Positions 5,803-59,673 of a DNA stretch of 64,000 nt are shown here, piece after piece. Origin of the DNA: Cellulophaga baltica (GTDB taxonomy: Bacteria > Bacteroidota > Bacteroidia > Flavobacteriales > Flavobacteriaceae). A program made the position numbers and the translations under genes. Position 1 is the stretch's first letter; each line of letters opens with the position of its first letter. The stretch spans positions 317,023-381,022 of the forward strand of contig NZ_JAHKQN010000015.1 of assembly GCF_018861125.1 (NCBI RefSeq), given 5' to 3'. The notes under the pieces are model-generated. The model was not told the origin of the DNA. It did no database searches and saw only the letters and a program-made list of their open reading frames with translations.

Positions 5803-7257
5803 ATGAACGGATTATTATTAACAGACGGTTACAAAACAGGACATCACCAACAATACCCAAAAGGAACAGAAGAAGTTTATTCTAACTGGACACCGAGAAG
5901 CAATAAATATGCACCTAAGGGCTGTGATAAAGTAGTTTCATTTGGTCAACAATATGTTTTTAAGTGGTTGCATGATTTTTTTGATGATAATTTTTTCTCT
6001 AAACCAAAAGTATCTATCTGTAATGAGTTAAAAGAAGAATTATCTATGTATTTGGGTACAGATTATGATGTTACACATTATGAGGAATTACATGATTTAC
6101 AGTATTTGCCAATTAAGGTAAAATCATTACCAGAAGGGGTAGAAGTACCTATTAGAGTGCCCATGGTAACTGTTGTTAATACTGATAAAAAATTCTATTG
6201 GATTACAAATTTTTTAGAAACCATTTTGTCAACTATGTTGTGGCAACCTATGACATCGGCTTCAATAGCGTTGTGTTATAAAAGAATTTTCAAAAAATGG
6301 ACTTTACTAACGGATAAAGATAATCTTGCGTTTATTGATTTTCAAGGTCACGATTTTTCTATGAGAGGTATGGGCGGTTTGCAAAGTGCAATATCATCAG
6401 GTATGGGACATGGAGCCGTATTTTTAGGGTCAGACACCTTACCAATAATTAGCAGTTTTCGCCAGTATTACAACGCAAAAGGTTTTGTGGTAGGTTCAGT
6501 AAATGCTACAGAACATTCTGTAATGTGTGCAGGTACAAAAGATGATGAATTGGGAACTTTTAGAGCTCTAATGACAACTTACCCAACTGGAATTTTATCT
6601 GTTGTTAGTGATACTTGGGATTTATGGAAGGTATTAACCGTTTATTTACCAGAATTAAAAGAAGAAGTTTTATCTCGTGATGGTAAACTAGTAATTCGAC
6701 CAGATTCTGGAGATCCTGTTGATATTATTTGTGGTGAAGACCAATCATTAGGAGGGGAAACACCTAAAGATAAAGGTGTAGTTGAATTACTTTGGGATAT
6801 TTTTGGAGGTACAGTAAACGAACAAGGTTTTAAAGTTTTAGATGGCCATATTGGTGCCATTTATGGAGATAGTATTACTACGGAAAGAGCAGAAAATATT
6901 TGTAAACGATTACATGATAAAGGTTTTGCAACAACTAACGTAGTTTTAGGTATTGGCTCTTTCACTTATCAATTTAATACTAGAGATACTTTTGGTTTTG
7001 CCATGAAAGCTACTTCTGTGGTTGTAAATGGAGAACGTAGAGAGATTTTTAAAGATCCAATTACAGATGATGGTGTTAAAAAGTCTGCTAAAGGCCTAAT
7101 AAAAGTTAATTTGATTGATGATGAATATGTGTTAGTTGATCAAGTTAGTCCTGAAGAAGAAAACAAGGGTGAGTTACAAGTAATTTATGAAAACGGAAAG
7201 TTTTTAAATCAGGTTACCATTCAAGAAATTAGAGAGTCAATTAATAAAAATCTTTAA
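5803..7257 (+). CDS. nadV: Nicotinamide phosphoribosyltransferase (NadV/NAMPT family)
   Basis: NAMPT-family enzyme that joins nicotinamide to PRPP to give NMN, the first step of NAD salvage. Length 484 residues is typical. Recognisable motifs are DGYKTGHHQQYPKGTEEVYSN at the start, FQGHDFSMRGMGG near residue 178, VVSDTWDLWKVL near 265, RPDSGDP near 300 and YGDSITTE near 355. The gene is preceded by the NrtR-controlled promoter and followed after 10 bp by a PRPP-synthetase-like gene that would supply its co-substrate. Members of the same family can act with ADP-ribose pyrophosphate in phage NAD-reconstitution pathways, so the sugar donor should be treated as inferred. Confidence 0.92.
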   Translation: MNGLLLTDGYKTGHHQQYPKGTEEVYSNWTPRSNKYAPKGCDKVVSFGQQYVFKWLHDFFDDNFFSKPKVSICNELKEELSMYLGTDYDVTHYEELHDLQYLPIKVKSLPEGVEVPIRVPMVTVVNTDKKFYWITNFLETILSTMLWQPMTSASIALCYKRIFKKWTLLTDKDNLAFIDFQGHDFSMRGMGGLQSAISSGMGHGAVFLGSDTLPIISSFRQYYNAKGFVVGSVNATEHSVMCAGTKDDELGTFRALMTTYPTGILSVVSDTWDLWKVLTVYLPELKEEVLSRDGKLVIRPDSGDPVDIICGEDQSLGGETPKDKGVVELLWDIFGGTVNEQGFKVLDGHIGAIYGDSITTERAENICKRLHDKGFATTNVVLGIGSFTYQFNTRDTFGFAMKATSVVVNGERREIFKDPITDDGVKKSAKGLIKVNLIDDEYVLVDQVSPEEENKGELQVIYENGKFLNQVTIQEIRESINKNL

Positions 7258-7267
7258 ATATTTAGTT

Positions 7268-8032
7268 ATGAAATACGAAATAAAGAAATTTAAAGATGGA
7301 CAAGTAACTGCTAAAGTTATAGAAAATGGAAATTTAGATATTAAAATCCGTGGAAATAGTTACGAAGATTTATTTAGAGTTGCTACCATAAAAGAAGCTT
7401 GGGATGCAGAGAATTCTGAAAATAAAACAGCAATAGCAAAACTTACCATTTTTTGTTTAATTGGTCAGCGATCTGATAGACGTTTTAACAAAGGCGAATC
7501 ATTTGATTTAAAGATTATAGCTAATTTTATTAATTCAATGCAATTTGATAAAGTTTCTATTTTACACCCTCATAGCCCAATTTCATTAGCATTAATAGAT
7601 AAATCAGAAAAATCATCTCATTTCTCATTTGTAGAAAAAGCATTTAATGCAATAGGAAATCCAGTATTGGTAAGTCCTGATGCTGGTGCTTATAAATCAA
7701 CACATGAAATTGCAGAAAAGTTAAATGCAGATTTAATACCATCAAACAAAGTAAGAGTAAACGGAGCACCTATCATTAGTATTCAAGGTGATGTAAAAGG
7801 TAAAGAATGCTTAATAGTTGATGATTTAGCTGATGGAGGAAGAACATTCAAGTTTTTAGCAGAAGCCTTAAAAAACCAAGGAGCATCAAAAGTATATTTG
7901 TATGTTACACACGCACAATTTAATTACGGCTTTGATGAGTTAAAGGAGACTATTGATCATGTATATTGTACAAATAGTTATAAAGTTATAGATGATAATT
8001 TTGTGACACAATTTGAAGTTCATAAATTATGA
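7268..8032 (+). CDS. PRPP-synthetase / phosphoribosyltransferase-like enzyme
   Basis: Short (254-residue) member of the ribose-phosphate pyrophosphokinase/type I phosphoribosyltransferase fold. The PRPP-binding loop is clear: CLIVDDLADGGRTF near residues 179-192, preceded by GDVKGKE. HPHSP near 98 and VSPDAG near 137 correspond to PrsA-type substrate loops. It is about 55 residues shorter than housekeeping PrsA (about 310), so it is probably a dedicated partner of the adjacent NadV rather than the cell's main PRPP synthase. It shares the NrtR-controlled transcript. In phages, proteins annotated like this make ADP-ribose pyrophosphate instead of PRPP. Confidence 0.8.
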   Translation: MKYEIKKFKDGQVTAKVIENGNLDIKIRGNSYEDLFRVATIKEAWDAENSENKTAIAKLTIFCLIGQRSDRRFNKGESFDLKIIANFINSMQFDKVSILHPHSPISLALIDKSEKSSHFSFVEKAFNAIGNPVLVSPDAGAYKSTHEIAEKLNADLIPSNKVRVNGAPIISIQGDVKGKECLIVDDLADGGRTFKFLAEALKNQGASKVYLYVTHAQFNYGFDELKETIDHVYCTNSYKVIDDNFVTQFEVHKL

Positions 8033-8134
8033 CTTATTCAATCTCATTAATTCAGATTGTTTTGAAGCTGTTACCTTAAAAGTAATAATCTCTAAAATAG
8101 AACGTTATTTAATTTAGTTAAGTAGGTTTTTTCT

Positions 8135-8142
8135 TACTTTTG
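8135..8142 (+). promoter_or_regulatory. -7 box for GAF histidine kinase gene
   Basis: TACTTTTG fits TAnnTTTG exactly and lies 18 bp upstream of the kinase ATG. No good -33 TTG is visible at the right distance. Confidence 0.4.
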
Positions 8143-8160
8143 TTTTAAATATTTGAATAA

Positions 8161-9375
8161 ATGGTTAGTCCTGAAATTCCAGAAAATGAAGTTGAGCGTA
8201 TAAAAGCGTTGCGTAGTTACAATATTCTAGATACGTTAGAGGAAAAAGAGTATGATGCTATTACCCGTATAGCAGCTGTTATATGTGATGCTCCTATGGC
8301 ATTGGTTTCATTAGTTGATGATGAAAGGCAATGGTTTAAATCTCATTACGGAATTGATGCTACTGAAACACCTCGGGAAGTAGCTTTTTGCGCACACGCA
8401 ATTAATTATCCTGAAGATTTATTTATTGTAAAAGATTCTAAAAAAGATACTAGGTTTTTTGATAACCCTTTAGTTACTGGTGGACCTAAAGTTCAATTTT
8501 ATGCGGGAGCACCTTTAAATACAAATGATGGGCATACGTTAGGTACGTTATGTGTAATCGATACCAAACCCCGAAAAGAATTTACCGAGCAACAGAAAAC
8601 TAGTTTAAGAGATTTAGCAAGCCAAGTAGTTGCACAATTAGAAATTAGAAAGCAAAATATTAATTACGAGGTAATTAATAAAAGGTTAGAAAATAAAAAT
8701 GATCAACTAAAGCAATTAACTTATCGTTTAGCTCATGATTTAAAAACACCTTTATTAGGCATAAGTTCTGTTGTGGGGTTTATAAAAGAAGATTACACAA
8801 ATCTTTTTAAAGATACTGATGTGACTGAATATTTAGATATTATCCAAGAACGAGCTAGCTATATGGAGTCATCTATAAACGGACTCATTAATTATAACAA
8901 TGTAATTAATACTGAAGTTCACATGAAATCTTTTAATATAAATGATGAGATTTCTAAAATAATTGAAGACACTTCACAGTTCAAAAATATTAAATTTGAC
9001 TCTGAAAATTGTGATGTTTTTATTGAACATTCATTAAATAGTTTTATTCAAATAATCCAAGAGTTTTTAACTAATTCAGTTAAGTTTTCTATTAAAAAAG
9101 AAGTTGAAGTAAAGTTAACCTTTGAAGATAGTAATCGTTACTATAATTTTACTTTTGAAGATAATAGTTCTGGTATTTCAAAAAAGTACTGGAATAAAGT
9201 CTTTGTAATGTTTGAGACAATTGACATTGAGAATAATAGTAATATAGGTCTTGGCTTAGCTAGAGTGAAATCAATCATCGAAAAATTAGATGGTGAAATT
9301 TCTATTGGTTTAAAACCAGATAATACCTCAGGAGTTTTTTATAGTTTTAAATTAGCTAAAGATGTAATCTTATAA
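8161..9375 (+). CDS. GAF-domain sensor histidine kinase
   Basis: Soluble sensor kinase without membrane segments. An N-terminal GAF domain covers about residues 25-165, including LVSLVDDERQWFKSHYG and GTLCVID, a pattern common in redox- or light-responsive GAF kinases. The HisKA H-box is YRLAHDLKTPLLG with the phosphoacceptor His near residue 196. The HATPase domain shows the N-box EFLTNSVKFS, the G1 motif DNSSGIS and the G2 motif GLGLARVKSI. No response regulator is adjacent, so the partner is unknown. Confidence 0.85.
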   Translation: MVSPEIPENEVERIKALRSYNILDTLEEKEYDAITRIAAVICDAPMALVSLVDDERQWFKSHYGIDATETPREVAFCAHAINYPEDLFIVKDSKKDTRFFDNPLVTGGPKVQFYAGAPLNTNDGHTLGTLCVIDTKPRKEFTEQQKTSLRDLASQVVAQLEIRKQNINYEVINKRLENKNDQLKQLTYRLAHDLKTPLLGISSVVGFIKEDYTNLFKDTDVTEYLDIIQERASYMESSINGLINYNNVINTEVHMKSFNINDEISKIIEDTSQFKNIKFDSENCDVFIEHSLNSFIQIIQEFLTNSVKFSIKKEVEVKLTFEDSNRYYNFTFEDNSSGISKKYWNKVFVMFETIDIENNSNIGLGLARVKSIIEKLDGEISIGLKPDNTSGVFYSFKLAKDVIL

Positions 9376-52738: not shown

Positions 52739-52764
52739 GCCCCATATTAATGGGGCTTTTTTTT
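52739..52764. terminator. Terminator between the SDR and haloperoxidase genes
   Basis: Arms GCCCCAT (52739-52745) and ATGGGGC (52750-52756) with a 4-nt loop and eight T. The T run overlaps the stop region of the convergent haloperoxidase gene, so both transcripts may end here. Confidence 0.88.
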
Positions 52765-54196
52765 AATTAAAATTATTATTGCCTTGTAAGTTTAAGCTAT
52801 TTATAGCATCTGCAACTTCGTACCCCAAACGTAAACCTTCAATAGCATCTTGCTCAATATGTACACCAAGTGGAACACGAGAATAGGCATTTTCTGTAGC
52901 CATTTCAGAAAAAGAATTAAAACTTCTTGCAGTTCCGTTAAAGGTTAAACCTGTAGCATTAGTATACGTATCATCAGTAAAAGATATGTTGTCAGTTTCA
53001 AAAAAATCTATAAATACTCCAGCGGCTGCTCCTGCAAAAGTTGCATGTCCAGATGGGTAACTTGGAAAAGCAGGGTTTACACCATCAATAAATCTAGATA
53101 AGTTGGTGGTAAAATCAGCATCAATCACTTGTCGAATATAAGTACTTGGTCGTTGTATGTTGTACGTATACTTATCATCCCAAGCGGATACTGCTGCATC
53201 GTTAACGGCAAAACCTAATTTTAATAACAGTTCTAGGGCTCCTTCATATTCCAAATCGTTTTGTGCAATTAATTGGTTAGCTATAGAAAAATGTCTCCCT
53301 GGAGGACTAATCATTAAGCCTTCAACATCATCAGCCCAAAATTCCGCAATCCATAAATCTTCATCATTAGTATTCGCTGCGTTTACAGTTGCTTCGTACA
53401 CATCATTCATTTGACTGTAATAATCACTATTTTGATTCGTACTGTATTCTAAAACAGATTCAAAATCTATACTACTAGATTGTTCTGGAGAAATAGCAAA
53501 AGTCCTAACTTCTCTCCAGTAAGGAAACCATGCATTTTCGTTATCACCAGCTGCCCAAAGTCCTGTTCCTACTGGAGCATCATAATCGTTAGGTGTTTGG
53601 TTTACAATTTGTTCTTCACCATCATTATCTGTTTCACTATAATCAATAACACGTTGTGCTACATGGCGCCCCCAACGCTCAGAGTTTTCTATAACATCAT
53701 CAGATAGTCCTTCTGATAATTCTTCTTCAAGTTCATCTTGTAGTTCAGAAATAGTTTGTCGGTAACCAGCTTCTAAATTAATCATAAAATGGTCTACAAC
53801 TAATGCATAAGCCGTATTTAATGCTAATTCTAAATTTACATTGTTTTCATAAACATTGTCATTAATATTAAAATTATTAAATCTGTTTGTGTTTGATGTA
53901 TAATTATCCATAAAAGGTATAGCTGTTTCGTAACCTGTTAAGTGTATATAAGCTAAAGATCTAGTAATGGTATTTGGCCTCATATTTACAGTGTATTGGT
54001 CTAAGTAAACCCATAAACTACTCCAAGCCAAAATTAGACTTGTAGTTTCATCTGAAACTTCATCTTCAGCAATACTATCAGCTATAGTTGTAGTATCATT
54101 ATCTAATTCTTCAATTAAATCATCAACGCTACAAGCGTTTAATAGTAGAGAAATAATTGCTAAATAAAATATACTTTTTAATGTTGTGTTTTTCAT
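52763..54196 (-). CDS. Vanadium-dependent haloperoxidase (PAP2 superfamily) lipoprotein
   Basis: Lipoprotein (lipobox LNACS, Cys22) with the complete vanadate/phosphate pocket of the PAP2/haloperoxidase superfamily: K-x6-RP (K342 to R349), PSGH (381-384) and SR-x5-H (S439, R440, H446). Length 477 and the acidic N-terminal region fit bacterial vanadium haloperoxidases, which oxidise halides with peroxide; an acid phosphatase activity is the alternative for this fold. It lies beyond the STN-type receptor and has its own promoter containing the same bipartite motif as fecR, linking it to the ECF sigma factor. Confidence 0.87.
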   Translation of the reverse strand: MKNTTLKSIFYLAIISLLLNACSVDDLIEELDNDTTTIADSIAEDEVSDETTSLILAWSSLWVYLDQYTVNMRPNTITRSLAYIHLTGYETAIPFMDNYTSNTNRFNNFNINDNVYENNVNLELALNTAYALVVDHFMINLEAGYRQTISELQDELEEELSEGLSDDVIENSERWGRHVAQRVIDYSETDNDGEEQIVNQTPNDYDAPVGTGLWAAGDNENAWFPYWREVRTFAISPEQSSSIDFESVLEYSTNQNSDYYSQMNDVYEATVNAANTNDEDLWIAEFWADDVEGLMISPPGRHFSIANQLIAQNDLEYEGALELLLKLGFAVNDAAVSAWDDKYTYNIQRPSTYIRQVIDADFTTNLSRFIDGVNPAFPSYPSGHATFAGAAAGVFIDFFETDNISFTDDTYTNATGLTFNGTARSFNSFSEMATENAYSRVPLGVHIEQDAIEGLRLGYEVADAINSLNLQGNNNFN

Positions 54197-54307
54197 AATT
54201 CTGTTTTGTTAAGAGATAAGATTGTTTTAAATAATCTTGGAGTTAAACCATTAAGTAAGTCCTACTTGAGTAAAAAAACTCGATGTAGTATTCTTTTTTT
54301 AATGTAT

Positions 54308-54337
54308 TACGAAGAGGAGATTGTTTTACCCAACCCT
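54308..54337 (-). promoter_or_regulatory. Candidate ECF-sigma promoter before the haloperoxidase gene
   Basis: Minus strand: AGGGTTGGGTAAAA (54324-54337), an 11-nt spacer, then TCGTA (54308-54312). The fecR copy at 57830-57859 has the identical 14-nt box, the same 11-nt spacer and the same TCGTA. The spacer and flanks differ, so these are conserved elements, not a recent duplication. The ATG is about 110 nt further down. Confidence 0.72.
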
Positions 54338-54417
54338 TAATTATGAAAAAAAACAGTAATTAGTTAAAATAAATTTTAATTAGCTTATTACTAGGTTTTT
54401 ATAAACTTGTTTTTTTA

Positions 54418-56877
54418 CTAGAAAAATAAGTTAACCTGAAGATTTGGTGAAAACTTAGTAGCGTTTCTAAAAGTACTATCAGAAGTATTTTGAAAAATAT
54501 TTATGGTATTGTCGGCATTATATACATTGAGGATAGATAAGCCAATTATAGATTTAAAGCTTTTTGAAGAATTGAAAAAAGTATAGCTAGCTGAAAAATC
54601 GAGCTGATGCAAAGCATCAAAACGGTCAGATAAATTAAGGTTACTAGTGTCGCTATCAGTTTCATCAGAAAAAATAATAGGCATTCCAGTAAAATGGCTC
54701 CATGTTAAAGCAAATTTCCACCTATTTAAATTAATTAAAGTGGTAATATCTAATAAGTGTGTTTGATCAAAAAAAGCGGTTGCAGTTGTACCGTTAAAAT
54801 CTGTAGTAGTTTCACTTAAAGCATAGCTTAACCAAGCCTCAAAAGCATGCCATTTTTTCTTTACAAAAAGGTTAGCACCTTTACTATAAATACTCCCAGG
54901 TACATTATCTGTTTTATTGGTAATGTCGTTTGTAGTTTTACGATAAAACTCAAGATCAATTAACCAATTCTTAAACTCAGTTACAGAACCAACCATAAAT
55001 TGAGACCCTTTTAATGCTGAAATTTGATCATTTGGTAAATACCAAAGCTGATTTGTAATATTAAAATCGTCAAAATCGTTCGTGAATTTTTTTTGAATAA
55101 ATTGATTGGAAGTTCCGTAAGACGACTTTAAATACCAATTATTATTTAGTGTAAAACTTGCAGTAATCCTTGGGTTTACATAAAATGTTTTTGAAGGTGC
55201 ATAGTAGTTATTATGAACGCCAAGGTTAAGCAACAATTTGTCATTCCAATTTTTTTGTAATACGAGGTATGATGAATGTACCACGGCACGTTCGTCCCTT
55301 TTTTGGTCAAGATCGTTTTCTTCTTCTAGCTCATTACTAATTATAGCGTGTTCGGTTAATGTGTAACCAGTTTCAAAAGTTAATTCTGTATTATACGTGT
55401 AAACAACTTCCGTTATTAACCGTGTGTCTAAAATAGTGTTATCGTACTTTTGTAGGCTAGATTGTTCTTCTAGAGTAAACCCCTGACTAACACTTTTAAG
55501 GTTCATTCTAGAACGGCTAATTCTAAACTCTGTTTCCCATTTTTTAGAAAATTTAGCTTCCCACTTTGCGGTAATTCCCCAATTGTTAAGCTCAAGGTCT
55601 CTAAAATCTGTTTCATCACTATTCTCGTTATCATTTACTTCAGCTGATAAGTTGTTTTGAATATTAATAAAGCTTAATGTAGCTAAGTGCTTATCGTTAA
55701 TTTTATAATTAAGTTTCGCATTCATATCAGTAAAACCAAAATCAAAATCATCGGATGTATTAATATCATCAGCAACAGACTCTAGTTTACTACCTTGAAA
55801 AATAAGCTCAGAAATAGCTACTAATTTGGGTAAATTAAAACCTGGATAGCTAGACCTAAATGCGGCTAAAAATGATAGTTTATTTTCAATAAGCTTAGCT
55901 TTTACAGTTGCTCCCGCAAATAATGTATTTACAGCAACTTCATAATTGGTACTATCCGGAATTTTATCACTAGTAGTCATATCAATTAAACCACCAACGC
56001 GACCGCCCCATTTTGCAGGAAGCATAGTTCTTTGCACTTCAATATTTGAAATAACAGAAGCATTGTATGGAGAAATAGCTCCTAAAAAATGACCTGAATG
56101 ATAAATAGGAATATCGTCTATTTGCACCAAGTTTTGGTCGTATGTGTTCCCTCTAAAATTTAAATTTCCAGATTTTCCGCTAGGGGAGTGTATACCAGGT
56201 ATATTGTTTAGAACATTAAAAACATCGCCAGCAGTTTCACCAGCCAACAAGCCAAGCGTTTGTGTATTAATCTGTAAACTAAAATCGCTTACTTTGGCAT
56301 CTACACCTTGGGTTAAATAGCCATTTAATACAATTTCATCTAAGTGAACCTGCTTTTTAAAAAAGTCTAAATGTTTGGTATTTAGTAAGTCATACGCACT
56401 TATTTGAACATCATTATAAACCTCTGAAAAAAAGTAAATAGAATCTAATGGAAATATTTTTTGTAAAGTAAACACGCCATTTTGCGCTTGAATATTTTGT
56501 TTATTGCCTTTATTTATTTGAAATTCTAGGGCTGTTATAAGCTCATTATTATCATGATTAATAACTGAAAACTTGAGAGTTTCTCGTTGTGGAGTAAGCA
56601 TGTAATAATCTGGACCATCTGCATTAAAATTAACAGGTAGCATTTGTTTTATTTTTGCTAAGCAATCTGAAATCTCGTCACAATTAAAATCGTTTTCTAG
56701 ATAAATGTCATCAAAAAAAGTGTGGTTATATGAAAAGCTTATGCTAAATTTTTGTTCTAATTCATCTAACTTATCAGAAAGCTTAATCGTCGTTTTATTT
56801 TGAGCAATAGCAAAGTTTAGGCTAGTACAATAAATACTAAACACTATAAATTTGAACAAATACAACTTTAACTTCAT
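54418..56877 (-). CDS. FecA-like TonB-dependent transducer with STN domain
   Basis: Outer-membrane receptor of 819 residues that both imports a ligand and signals to FecR. Order: signal peptide (to AIAQ), STN/secretin-like signalling domain (about 30-115, LDELEQKFSISFSYNHTFFDD, ISDCLAKIKQMLPVNFNADGPDYYML), a variable beta domain, a plug with GETAGDVFNVLNNIPGIHSPSGKSGNLNFRGNTYDQNLVQIDDIPIYHSG, and a barrel ending in a Phe (LQVNLFF). Its start is 3 bp after the fecR stop. The STN domain and operon make cell-surface signalling firm; the ligand is not known. Confidence 0.9.
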   Translation of the reverse strand: MKLKLYLFKFIVFSIYCTSLNFAIAQNKTTIKLSDKLDELEQKFSISFSYNHTFFDDIYLENDFNCDEISDCLAKIKQMLPVNFNADGPDYYMLTPQRETLKFSVINHDNNELITALEFQINKGNKQNIQAQNGVFTLQKIFPLDSIYFFSEVYNDVQISAYDLLNTKHLDFFKKQVHLDEIVLNGYLTQGVDAKVSDFSLQINTQTLGLLAGETAGDVFNVLNNIPGIHSPSGKSGNLNFRGNTYDQNLVQIDDIPIYHSGHFLGAISPYNASVISNIEVQRTMLPAKWGGRVGGLIDMTTSDKIPDSTNYEVAVNTLFAGATVKAKLIENKLSFLAAFRSSYPGFNLPKLVAISELIFQGSKLESVADDINTSDDFDFGFTDMNAKLNYKINDKHLATLSFINIQNNLSAEVNDNENSDETDFRDLELNNWGITAKWEAKFSKKWETEFRISRSRMNLKSVSQGFTLEEQSSLQKYDNTILDTRLITEVVYTYNTELTFETGYTLTEHAIISNELEEENDLDQKRDERAVVHSSYLVLQKNWNDKLLLNLGVHNNYYAPSKTFYVNPRITASFTLNNNWYLKSSYGTSNQFIQKKFTNDFDDFNITNQLWYLPNDQISALKGSQFMVGSVTEFKNWLIDLEFYRKTTNDITNKTDNVPGSIYSKGANLFVKKKWHAFEAWLSYALSETTTDFNGTTATAFFDQTHLLDITTLINLNRWKFALTWSHFTGMPIIFSDETDSDTSNLNLSDRFDALHQLDFSASYTFFNSSKSFKSIIGLSILNVYNADNTINIFQNTSDSTFRNATKFSPNLQVNLFF

Positions 56878-56880
56878 ATT

Positions 56881-57804
56881 TTACTGAAAAGTTACATTAC
56901 TAGTATCATCTACTATATATTCAATTTCCATAGAAGTTGATAGTGTTTGTAATGCTTTATTTAAATTTTTATGTGTTATAGTACCTGTAAACTCTAAATT
57001 ATGGTACTTTTTAGGTAATGTAATAGTGGTGTTGTAATATTTTTGTAAATCATTAATTACAACCATAAGTTTACTCTTGTTGTATTTACTAAAACCATTC
57101 ATCCAATTTGGTTTATTGGTATTAATAATACTTTTAAGTAGTGTATTTTGTGTAGCAACAGCCGCTTGTCCTTTTGATAGAATTTCAGAATCTTTACTAT
57201 AACTTACTTTAACTTTGCCTTCAAAACATTTAACTTCAAATGTATTATTGGTCGCATTTACATTAAACTGTGTACCTAAAACTTCAATAGAACCTGTAGC
57301 AGTAGTCACTTTAAACGTATTACCTTTAGTAACCACAAAAAAAGCTTGCCCGGTTAAAGCTATATTTCTATTAGCATTCCAATCTTTTTCTTGATATGAT
57401 ATACTAGATAAGGCATCTAACTTAATTATTGATCCATCAGGCAGTGTTACATTTTTATTTTCAGCAATCGTAGTTTCAATAACTGTATCAGTATTTAAAA
57501 AGTAATTTACTGCAAAAAATGCAACGGAAATAAAAATAACAATACCAGCAGCAATACTTAGCCAATTGGTTACCAACTTGGGTTTGGGTGTAGTAGGGGA
57601 GATTACCCTTTTTTTTCGTTCTTTAAGATTCTCTAAACCTTTTTCTACATCAAACTGTTCAACTTGCCAAGTATCGATATCATCAATAACCACTTTTAAA
57701 TCGTCTAATTCGCCCGATTTTTGTAAGGCTTCTTTTTCGTCATCTGTTAAACGATTATCTAGCCAACGAGCTATTAAATTGTCTTTACTAAATTTACTTT
57801 CCAC
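56881..57804 (-). CDS. FecR-family anti-sigma factor
   Basis: Membrane-spanning anti-sigma/regulatory protein of 307 residues. The N-terminal cytoplasmic part (1-80) would hold the ECF sigma factor. One TM helix lies at about 84-105 (WLSIAAGIVIFISVAFFAVNYFL). The periplasmic FecR domain shows NVTLPDGSIIKLDALSSISY, GQAFFVVTKGNTFKVTTATGSIEVLGTQFNV and FEGKVKVS, and a C-terminal STN-like DUF4974 region reaches the end. It receives the signal from the STN domain of the receptor encoded directly downstream. Confidence 0.92.
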   Translation of the reverse strand: MESKFSKDNLIARWLDNRLTDDEKEALQKSGELDDLKVVIDDIDTWQVEQFDVEKGLENLKERKKRVISPTTPKPKLVTNWLSIAAGIVIFISVAFFAVNYFLNTDTVIETTIAENKNVTLPDGSIIKLDALSSISYQEKDWNANRNIALTGQAFFVVTKGNTFKVTTATGSIEVLGTQFNVNATNNTFEVKCFEGKVKVSYSKDSEILSKGQAAVATQNTLLKSIINTNKPNWMNGFSKYNKSKLMVVINDLQKYYNTTITLPKKYHNLEFTGTITHKNLNKALQTLSTSMEIEYIVDDTSNVTFQ

Positions 57805-57829
57805 GGTTACTTGGTTTTTTTAAATTCTA

Positions 57830-57859
57830 TACGATTTTAGAACTTTTTTACCCAACCCT
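57830..57859 (-). promoter_or_regulatory. Candidate ECF-sigma promoter before fecR
   Basis: Minus strand: AGGGTTGGGTAAAA (57846-57859) starts inside the TAG stop codon of the sigma gene; after 11 nt comes TCGTA (57830-57834), and the fecR ATG follows after 25 nt. This would let the sigma factor boost fecR and the receptor gene without boosting itself. Confidence 0.72.
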
Positions 57860-58379
57860 AAAACTTACGTTTTTGCAATTCGGTAATTTCTTTAAGTTTA
57901 ATTAAGGCCTTAGCAATTCTATTTTCAACAGCAGTTTGACTAATTTCAAGTTTATTGGCTATTTCTTTAAAGGTAAGTTTTTCTATTCTATTTAATAAAA
58001 AAGCTTCACGTTGTTTTTCTGGTAAACCAGCAATAGTACTTTCAATTTTTTCTTGAAACTCTTTAGTTCTTAAATGAAAATAAGGATCTTCATTATCTTG
58101 AGTTTCGGTATAACTTTTTTTAAACTTTAAGACTACTTTATTTTTCCTAATACTATCAATAAACATGTTTTTTGATGCCGTGTATAGAAAACCAACAGCG
58201 TTATCGTAAATAATGCTATTACATTTTCTCCATAATTTAATGAAAGACTCTTGTACAACATCTTCAGCTTGTTTTAAATTACCAAACTTAAAATACAAAT
58301 GGTTTCTTAGGCTTTCAGCGTGTGTTTTATAAAGGTTGTTATATACATCTTCATCGCAAACAGAAAGATTATTGGGCAT
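57858..58379 (-). CDS. ECF RNA polymerase sigma factor, FecI type
   Basis: Sigma-70 family factor of 173 residues with only regions 2 and 4. Region 2: SLRNHLYFKFGNLKQAEDVVQESFIKLWRKCN (about 24-55) and GFLYTASKNMFIDSIRKNK. Region 4: LPEKQREAFLLNRIEKLTFKEIANKLEISQTAVENRIAKALIKLKE (about 118-163). The order sigma, anti-sigma, STN receptor is the classical Bacteroidota cell-surface-signalling operon. A pair of conserved bipartite motifs before fecR and the haloperoxidase gene are its likely targets. Confidence 0.93.
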   Translation of the reverse strand: MPNNLSVCDEDVYNNLYKTHAESLRNHLYFKFGNLKQAEDVVQESFIKLWRKCNSIIYDNAVGFLYTASKNMFIDSIRKNKVVLKFKKSYTETQDNEDPYFHLRTKEFQEKIESTIAGLPEKQREAFLLNRIEKLTFKEIANKLEISQTAVENRIAKALIKLKEITELQKRKF

Positions 58380-58858
58380 TAGCTAATAGTTTTGGTAAAT
58401 ATATAAATTATTAAAATAGTGCTAGTTAGTTGGCAATAATTCTCTGCGAAATGTAACTTGAACTTTGGTGAAACAAAATATTTTGTACAAGCACTTTCTT
58501 CATTTTTTTTAAAATTTCTTGAAAAATGTAAACGAATATGCTTTGCCTGAAGGGAAGTAGTAATGCATATAGAATAGAATGGAATGAAAAACTATATTAG
58601 AGTTATCAATAGTGAAAGAAGCTAAAATTCTTTAAAAATATCACCTAATAGTAGATTTTTTTTAAAAAGCATTTTTGCATCACAAAAAATTCAACACCTT
58701 AAATTGGAGCGTATTAAAATTCATACAATGCTGTTAATACTATCGTAAATATTGAATTGAACACTAGAGTTTTAGTTGTTTAAAGCAACAATATAAACAT
58801 TTGTTAACCGCAGTTCGTTTTACTACTAGATTGTTTTAAGATAAAATTTAAAAATATA
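58380..58858. repeat. Upstream part of a degenerate segmental duplication
   Basis: From about 58528 this gene-free stretch matches 62298-62640, the leader of the intact peroxiredoxin-like gene. Shared blocks include GAAGTAGTAATGCATA, ATATTAGAGTTA, AAGCTAAAATTCTT and CAACACCTTAAATT, in the same order with small indels. It continues into the coding copy at 58859-59080. The part before 58528 is the leader of the sigma factor gene, without other features. Confidence 0.75.
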
Positions 58859-59090
58859 GACCATAATAAAGCCCAAAATAAACACCCGAATTAGCAATTA
58901 AATTAGTGAATGATGCCACGTGGAAATTGAGTGAACAATCACCTGAAAATTTTACCATGATATTGTTTTATAGAGGTAAACATTGCCTTGTTTGCAAAGC
59001 GCAGTTAGATGAACTACAGAAGAAGTTAAATAAGTTTATACAACGTGGTGTCTCATTAATAGCCATCAGTACAGCTATTAATGAGTGTTG
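58859..59090 (+). pseudogene. Truncated copy of the peroxiredoxin-like gene
   Basis: Matches the first 75 or so codons of the intact gene at 62641-63147. The original ATG has become ATA, and a net 2-bp loss near codon 8 shifts the frame. The conserved C-P-V-C is C-L-V-C, and the homology stops at about 59073 within IAIST. The open frame then reads into a fragment of a DUF4625 gene and meets a stop (TGA) at 59087. It cannot make a functional protein. Confidence 0.85.
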
Positions 59091-59205
59091 AACTAGTTCT
59101 AAAATAAATGTAAGCATTATAATTACTGATGATGTTGATAAAGTTGATTGTCACTGTGCATATTCTGTTACTGATGCTATAATATGTCATTCTAAATTGC
59201 TACTA
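59074..59205 (+). pseudogene. Fragment of a DUF4625 lipoprotein gene
   Basis: Collinear without gaps with about 37580-37707, the C-terminal coding region of the 157-residue DUF4625 lipoprotein. In the same frame it would read INVSIIITDDVDKVDCHCAY, compared with INVSITIPDDVDTGDYHCAY in the intact gene. One Gly codon became the TGA that ends the preceding frame. The fragment is fused to the broken peroxiredoxin copy at about 59073. Confidence 0.8.
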
Positions 59206-59492
59206 CAGTAACAAAAGTAAAACTATTAGATAACTCTTTTACAGATTAGACTAAAGCTGTAATTAAAAAAGAATTTCCAAAAATTACCGATGCTGATTTG
59301 GAACATGAAAGCATTGAGAGTTTGACCGAAAATAAAGAAGTTACAATTGATAAAAACTCAAATGCAATTTCATCAGACGAAATAAATGAGGAAGAAGAAA
59401 GAAGAGGATGTCTTTTCTTTGGACCAATAGTAACTTTAGTAATATTAGGTATTCTATTTATATTTCTTCTTTTTATGGTATTACATTCTTAA
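59200..59492 (+). pseudogene. Remnant of an LRR-transmembrane protein gene
   Basis: Reads KVKLLDNSFTD-stop-TKAVIKKEFPKITDADLE, closely matching KVKLLDNPFTDETKVLIKKEFPKITEADLE of the LRR membrane protein (near 32415-32505). An in-frame TAG replaces a Glu codon. It then continues through an acidic linker into a TM helix (CLFFGPIVTLVILGILFIFLLFMVLHS) and stops at 59490, so the parent was a paralogue lacking the large C-terminal domain. The longest open frame in it starts with TTG and is not a credible gene. Confidence 0.75.
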
Positions 59493-59584
59493 ATGCTTAC
59501 CTGTTCATATATAGTCTTTTCTGTTAAATGGCATTACACTATTAGCTTATAACATCATTTCAAAAGATGCTATCAAAGATTTTT

Positions 59585-59673
59585 TTTGGTAAACTAAGTA
59601 AACTTAAAAATATTAGATTAAGTACTAATTATATTGAAGCTTTACCAAATTCTTTTTGTGAACTAAGTTCTTA
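59585..59673 (+). pseudogene. Isolated LRR repeat remnant
   Basis: One frame reads GKLSKLKNIRLSTNYIEALP followed by NSFCELSS and a stop, which is a canonical LRR unit. It lies after, not before, the LRR-TM fragment, so the pieces are rearranged or come from another repeat gene. Confidence 0.65.

Follow-up and report, generated by a model that had tools for sequence, protein, structure and literature searches.

Gene Content of the Cassette

The window (the whole 64 kb stretch of DNA that was analyzed) carries genes on its minus strand for a FecI-type ECF sigma factor, a FecR-type regulator, a TonB-dependent receptor, and a vanadium-dependent haloperoxidase (VHPO), as the first-pass annotation had called them (Table 1). 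The sigma factor matches the Pfam domains of regions 2 and 4 (Sigma70_r2 and r4_2) above their cut-offs, and TIGR02985 below its cut-off. The adjoining FecR likewise exceeds the cut-offs of both of its Pfam domains (FecR, PF04773, 7.8e-20; FecR_C, PF16344, 2.5e-09), and the receptor gene starts 3 bp past fecR. Upstream of the sigma gene, a stretch of approximately 1.2 kb (58404-59660) has no open reading frame of at least 100 aa.

Table 1. Features of the sigma factor, FecR, receptor, and VHPO locus, in window coordinates.
Feature	Position	Strand	Basis or remark
FecI-type ECF sigma factor, 173 aa	57858..58379	-	Pfam Sigma70_r2, r4_2
FecR anti-sigma/sigma regulator, one transmembrane segment, GTG start	56881..57804	-	Pfam FecR, FecR_C
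TonB-dependent receptor/transducer, 819 aa	54418..56877	-	Pfam Plug
Receptor N-terminal signaling (STN-like) domain, approximately residues 30-97	56587..56790	-	AlphaFold2 model and Foldseek
VHPO, 477 aa, lipoprotein signal LLLNAC-SVDD	52763..54196	-	PDB match 4cit
Putative ECF promoter 1 (fecR-receptor)	57830..57859	-	AGGGTTGGGTAAAA-N11-TCGTA exact; starts inside sigma stop codon
Putative ECF promoter 2 (VHPO)	54308..54337	-	AGGGTTGGGTAAAA-N11-TCGTA exact
Candidate housekeeping sigma-A -7 element of the sigma gene, TATATTTA, TAnnTTTG-like	58396..58403	-	

Searches of the receptor N-terminus against Pfam and the PDB sequences, including a profile search, returned no match, and a structural route was therefore taken. 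In an AlphaFold2 model (mean pLDDT 67.5, moderate confidence), the receptor N-terminus matched the FecA signaling domain (1zzv) by Foldseek with a probability of 1.00 and a TM(target) of 0.69 (rmsd 2.1 A over 68 columns). Support for a FecA-like signaling domain in this modeled region is thus good but not conclusive because the E-value of the match is weak (0.08).

The VHPO gene follows the receptor gene in the same direction after 221 bp. Its best PDB match is the Zobellia vanadium haloperoxidase 4cit (phmmer, E 7.8e-30), with which the motifs WDDKY, RPS, PSGH, and SR-x4-GVH align. All of the residues that bind vanadate in chloroperoxidase (Lys, Arg, Ser, Gly, His, Arg, and His) are present, and the key ones are invariant across seven orthologs. 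A flavobacterial lipoprotein signal in which the cysteine is followed by acidic residues suggests surface exposure, and the VHPO is therefore predicted to be a surface lipoprotein.

A Bipartite Motif before fecR and the VHPO Gene

The first-pass annotation had described one bipartite element before both fecR and the VHPO gene, and both copies were recovered as exact 30-base occurrences of AGGGTTGGGTAAAA-N11-TCGTA on the minus strand, identical in the 14-mer, the spacer length, and TCGTA, and unlike in spacer sequence. The overlap with the sigma gene also holds, as the fecR copy begins with the A of the sigma stop codon TAG (57860-57858). No other match with up to three mismatches occurs in the window, for which shuffled sequences give an expectation of 0.01 per 64 kb, and no shuffle reached two. 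Across the whole genome (3.92 Mb), the two exact copies are accompanied by one three-mismatch match, which lies within a peptidase-like coding gene. The motif is absent from the genome's four further FecR cassettes, an absence that argues for a private channel.

Conservation in Related Genomes

Relatives of the sigma factor were sought in approximately 85,000 genomes. Six close orthologs were found in Flavobacteriaceae (Cellulophaga, three Tamlana, Polaribacter, and Winogradskyella), and one further match was distantly related. All six relatives have the sigma factor, FecR, receptor, and VHPO genes in identical order, with identities to the window orthologs of 77-96% for the sigma factor, 64-93% for the receptor, and 73-95% for the VHPO. 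The seven genomes amount to about four lineages, as the window and Cellulophaga are close to each other and so are the three Tamlana. The flanks of the cassette are mostly unlike between genomes, except for two Tamlana with a common neighbor gene. In Tamlana sedimentorum, a gene for an arylsulfotransferase-family lipoprotein adjoins the VHPO gene (L102:14094-15353). Among 299 genomes of the family, the strict motif occurs in only one besides that of the window, namely G173, apparently the same T. sedimentorum contig as the ortholog locus L102. The sole other sampled genome of the genus of the window has no VHPO match, which suggests that the cassette is patchily distributed and probably moves horizontally.

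Comparison of the seven loci refined the core of the motif to GGTTGGGTAAAA-N12-CGT(A), with the T preceding CGTA dispensable at other members. Each cassette has exactly two copies, none of the 14 departs from the 12-mer by more than one mismatch, and all lie exactly 12 bases before CGT, compared with zero to three matches at other spacings. With three mismatches allowed for real and shuffled sequences alike, 20 shuffled locus sets gave approximately one match on average (0-5), and the seven loci gave a fifteenth match, with three mismatches, inside the Winogradskyella VHPO gene.

One copy precedes the VHPO gene in all seven cassettes. In the alignment of the receptor-VHPO intergenic regions, the putative promoter forms the conserved block, with no change at GGTTGGGTAAAA, TCGTA, or TACA in any of the seven, and the surrounding DNA has diverged. 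A conserved 5'-leader hairpin before the VHPO gene was also considered and rejected, as folding z-scores ranged from +0.9 to -2.3 and no common structure emerged. Related VHPO genes outside the cassette have no such motif in their upstream regions.

The second copy is found before fecR in three cassettes (window, Cellulophaga, and Polaribacter), and before a gene for a di-heme cytochrome c peroxidase (CCP) in the other four (three Tamlana and Winogradskyella), where the CCP gene lies directly upstream of the sigma gene (L100, L101, L102, and L104, near 6650-8600). The CCP of these relatives matches CCP_MauG (PF03150, 5.7e-51) and has two CxxCH heme sites, CASCH and CFDCH; a tblastn search upstream of the sigma gene of the window found no CCP remnant. 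In the four genomes with CCP, the copy in the sigma-fecR gap is degenerate or lost, which suggests that the fecR copy is replaceable. By these positions, every cassette has retained a copy for the cassette operon itself and another for the VHPO gene. The arrangement may also place the sigma gene inside an autoregulated transcript where CCP is present and outside of it where CCP is absent.

A second conserved element lies before the sigma gene itself, where TATnTTTAC is kept approximately 16-30 bp before the start codon in all seven loci, including those in which this region is the CCP-sigma gap. The element resembles TAnnTTTG, the consensus -7 box of flavobacterial housekeeping promoters (PMC9723704), and basal expression of the sigma gene could start from there.

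A strict scan of the seven whole genomes returned 19 sites: the 14 cassette copies, a coding-gene site for each Tamlana (three in total), and two more. The reversed-pattern control gave two sites. No further clear promoter-positioned site was found in the genome of the window or in the six relatives. The first-pass annotation had looked to a genome scan for the regulon of this sigma factor; the scan did recover the sites, but as 14 of the 19 are at cassettes, the regulon appears to be local and small, and a wider, genome-wide regulon is not supported in these seven genomes.

Relationship to Promoter-Like Motifs of Other FecI Cassettes

Of 18 FecI-FecR-receptor cassettes of the family that are more distantly related, 14 have a variant of the motif, GT[A/T]GGG-N16-TGT, in the FecI/FecR gap. 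The same loci contain 34 such sites, whereas altered spacings gave approximately three and the reversed pattern gave none, and further copies often precede a nearby cargo gene, such as that of a 7TM-transglutaminase protein or a GDSL lipase-like lipoprotein. The recurrence of the variant in the same gap and before cargo genes points to the motif as the ECF promoter of the cassette. The proposal that the bipartite element is the promoter of the adjacent FecI-type factor is thus strengthened, as the element also has fixed spacing and each of the seven genomes has two copies of it at its cassette. The focal cassettes resemble the GTAGGG-N16-TGT cassettes of other Flavobacteriaceae in gene order, in the position of the putative promoter in the FecI/FecR gap, and in the copies before cargo genes, but differ in having a -35-like GTTGGG instead of GTAGGG, CGT instead of TGT at -10, a spacing longer by one base, and peroxidases as cargo. 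In the genome of the window, the canonical GTAGGG-N16-TGT pattern is not above control. One of the canonical-type loci has three GTAGGG-type motifs in series before a small thioredoxin-like gene beside a FecI cassette (L044:11935-12499).

The sigma factors associated with the focal motif form a single clade (support 100/100), distinguished by D75, which is N in 14 canonical sigma factors, and by T149, which is K in all 14. D75 falls in region 2 and T149, by the known fold, within the region 4 recognition helix. The co-occurrence of these residues with the motif variant is as expected of promoter-sigma co-evolution, although phylogeny alone could give the same pattern. For many orphan FecI systems of Flavobacteriaceae, cargo genes could be predicted from the GTAGGG-N16-TGT / GTTGGG-N17-CGT family.

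Proposed Mechanism and Alternatives

Taken together, the locus most probably represents a cell-surface signaling cassette in which the sigma factor recognizes two sites and thereby drives both the fecR-receptor genes and the VHPO gene, a reading to which we assign a probability of roughly 0.87. A ligand from outside the cell would be bound by the TonB-dependent receptor, whose FecA-like N-terminal domain would signal to the inner-membrane protein FecR. FecR would in turn free or activate the FecI-type sigma factor, and RNA polymerase carrying this factor would then read GGTTGGGTAAAA-N12-CGTA at just two places, one leading to fecR and the receptor gene (or to the peroxidase operon in the CCP genomes) and the other to the lipoprotein VHPO, while a basal level of the sigma factor would probably be supplied by a housekeeping promoter. 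We infer transcription from both sites, and its dependence on the cassette sigma factor, from the position and conservation of the elements in the seven genomes. The dual output proposed in the first-pass annotation is largely supported on these grounds, with the amendment that in four relatives the gene of a second peroxidase has taken over the promoter that fecR has elsewhere.

The same conservation would fit an operator as well as a promoter, and the element could be the binding site of a separate transcription factor, for example one responsive to oxidative stress or halides, with the sigma factor acting elsewhere. We consider this improbable since two blocks at fixed spacing with a CGT -10 core are typical of ECF sites, the variant occupies most FecI/FecR gaps, the focal form tracks one sigma clade, and no other regulator gene is common to all seven cassettes. 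The VHPO gene might alternatively be transcribed mainly by read-through from fecR and the receptor gene or from a housekeeping sigma promoter, leaving the second motif as a minor site or a relic of duplication. Its co-directional placement only 221 bp past the receptor gene, across a gap in which no strong terminator was apparent by eye, would allow for this, but conservation is highest at the VHPO copy (in seven of seven, with TCGTA and TACA invariant) amid diverged intergenic DNA, and the unlike spacers indicate that this copy is no recent duplication. This alternative is likewise improbable, slightly more so than an operator. With just two genome copies, the repeat might be taken for a functionless sequence of chance or mobile origin, yet against an expectation of 0.01 per window, several genera keep both its places and its spacing; this conservation refutes the idea, to which we attach next to no weight.

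Under the two-site promoter reading, a switch sequence common to the receptor genes and the VHPO gene, and kept in six relatives, suggests that an outside signal probably induces the VHPO. Several host names suggest brown algae, and the Zobellia vanadium iodoperoxidase vIPO3 is induced on the brown alga Ascophyllum (PMC9296495); a role at the algal surface is therefore plausible, in which the VHPO may oxidize halides with peroxide released by brown-algal hosts. A more speculative extension, which we hold only tentatively and would sooner doubt than accept, is a peroxidase-dedicated regulon in which the receptor senses a molecule linked to the algal host or to halides and induces the surface VHPO, together with CCP in some genomes, and in which a change of place of the self-regulating promoter, from fecR to a peroxidase gene or the reverse, decides whether the sigma gene sits within its own feedback loop.

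Comparison with Known Systems

FecI-type surface signaling is mostly known for iron and glycan uptake. A search of an open-access library found no report of a FecI-haloperoxidase circuit, and cell-surface signaling with peroxidases as the output appears to be new. The vanadium iodoperoxidase of Zobellia galactanivorans (4cit) belongs to the same superfamily as the VHPO, which has the full active site but is distant in sequence, and no FecI cassette has been reported for the Zobellia enzyme in the literature searched. In Flavobacterium psychrophilum, the SM6 class of ECF promoters transcribes type IX secretion genes (PMC9723704), an output that differs from that predicted for the focal promoter.

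The FecI-FecR-FecA system of Escherichia coli is alike in its ECF sigma factor, FecR-type regulator, and TonB receptor with an N-terminal signaling domain. In E. coli, the FecI-dependent promoter lies before fecA, and fecIR is controlled by Fur and is not autoregulated (PMC9249621). In the cassette described here, the putative promoter lies instead between the sigma gene and fecR, or before the CCP and sigma genes, and the output would be a haloperoxidase rather than an iron transporter. With a halide-oxidizing enzyme as its sole conserved predicted target besides itself, the cassette may offer a genetic handle on the timing of reactive halogen production in marine bacteria.
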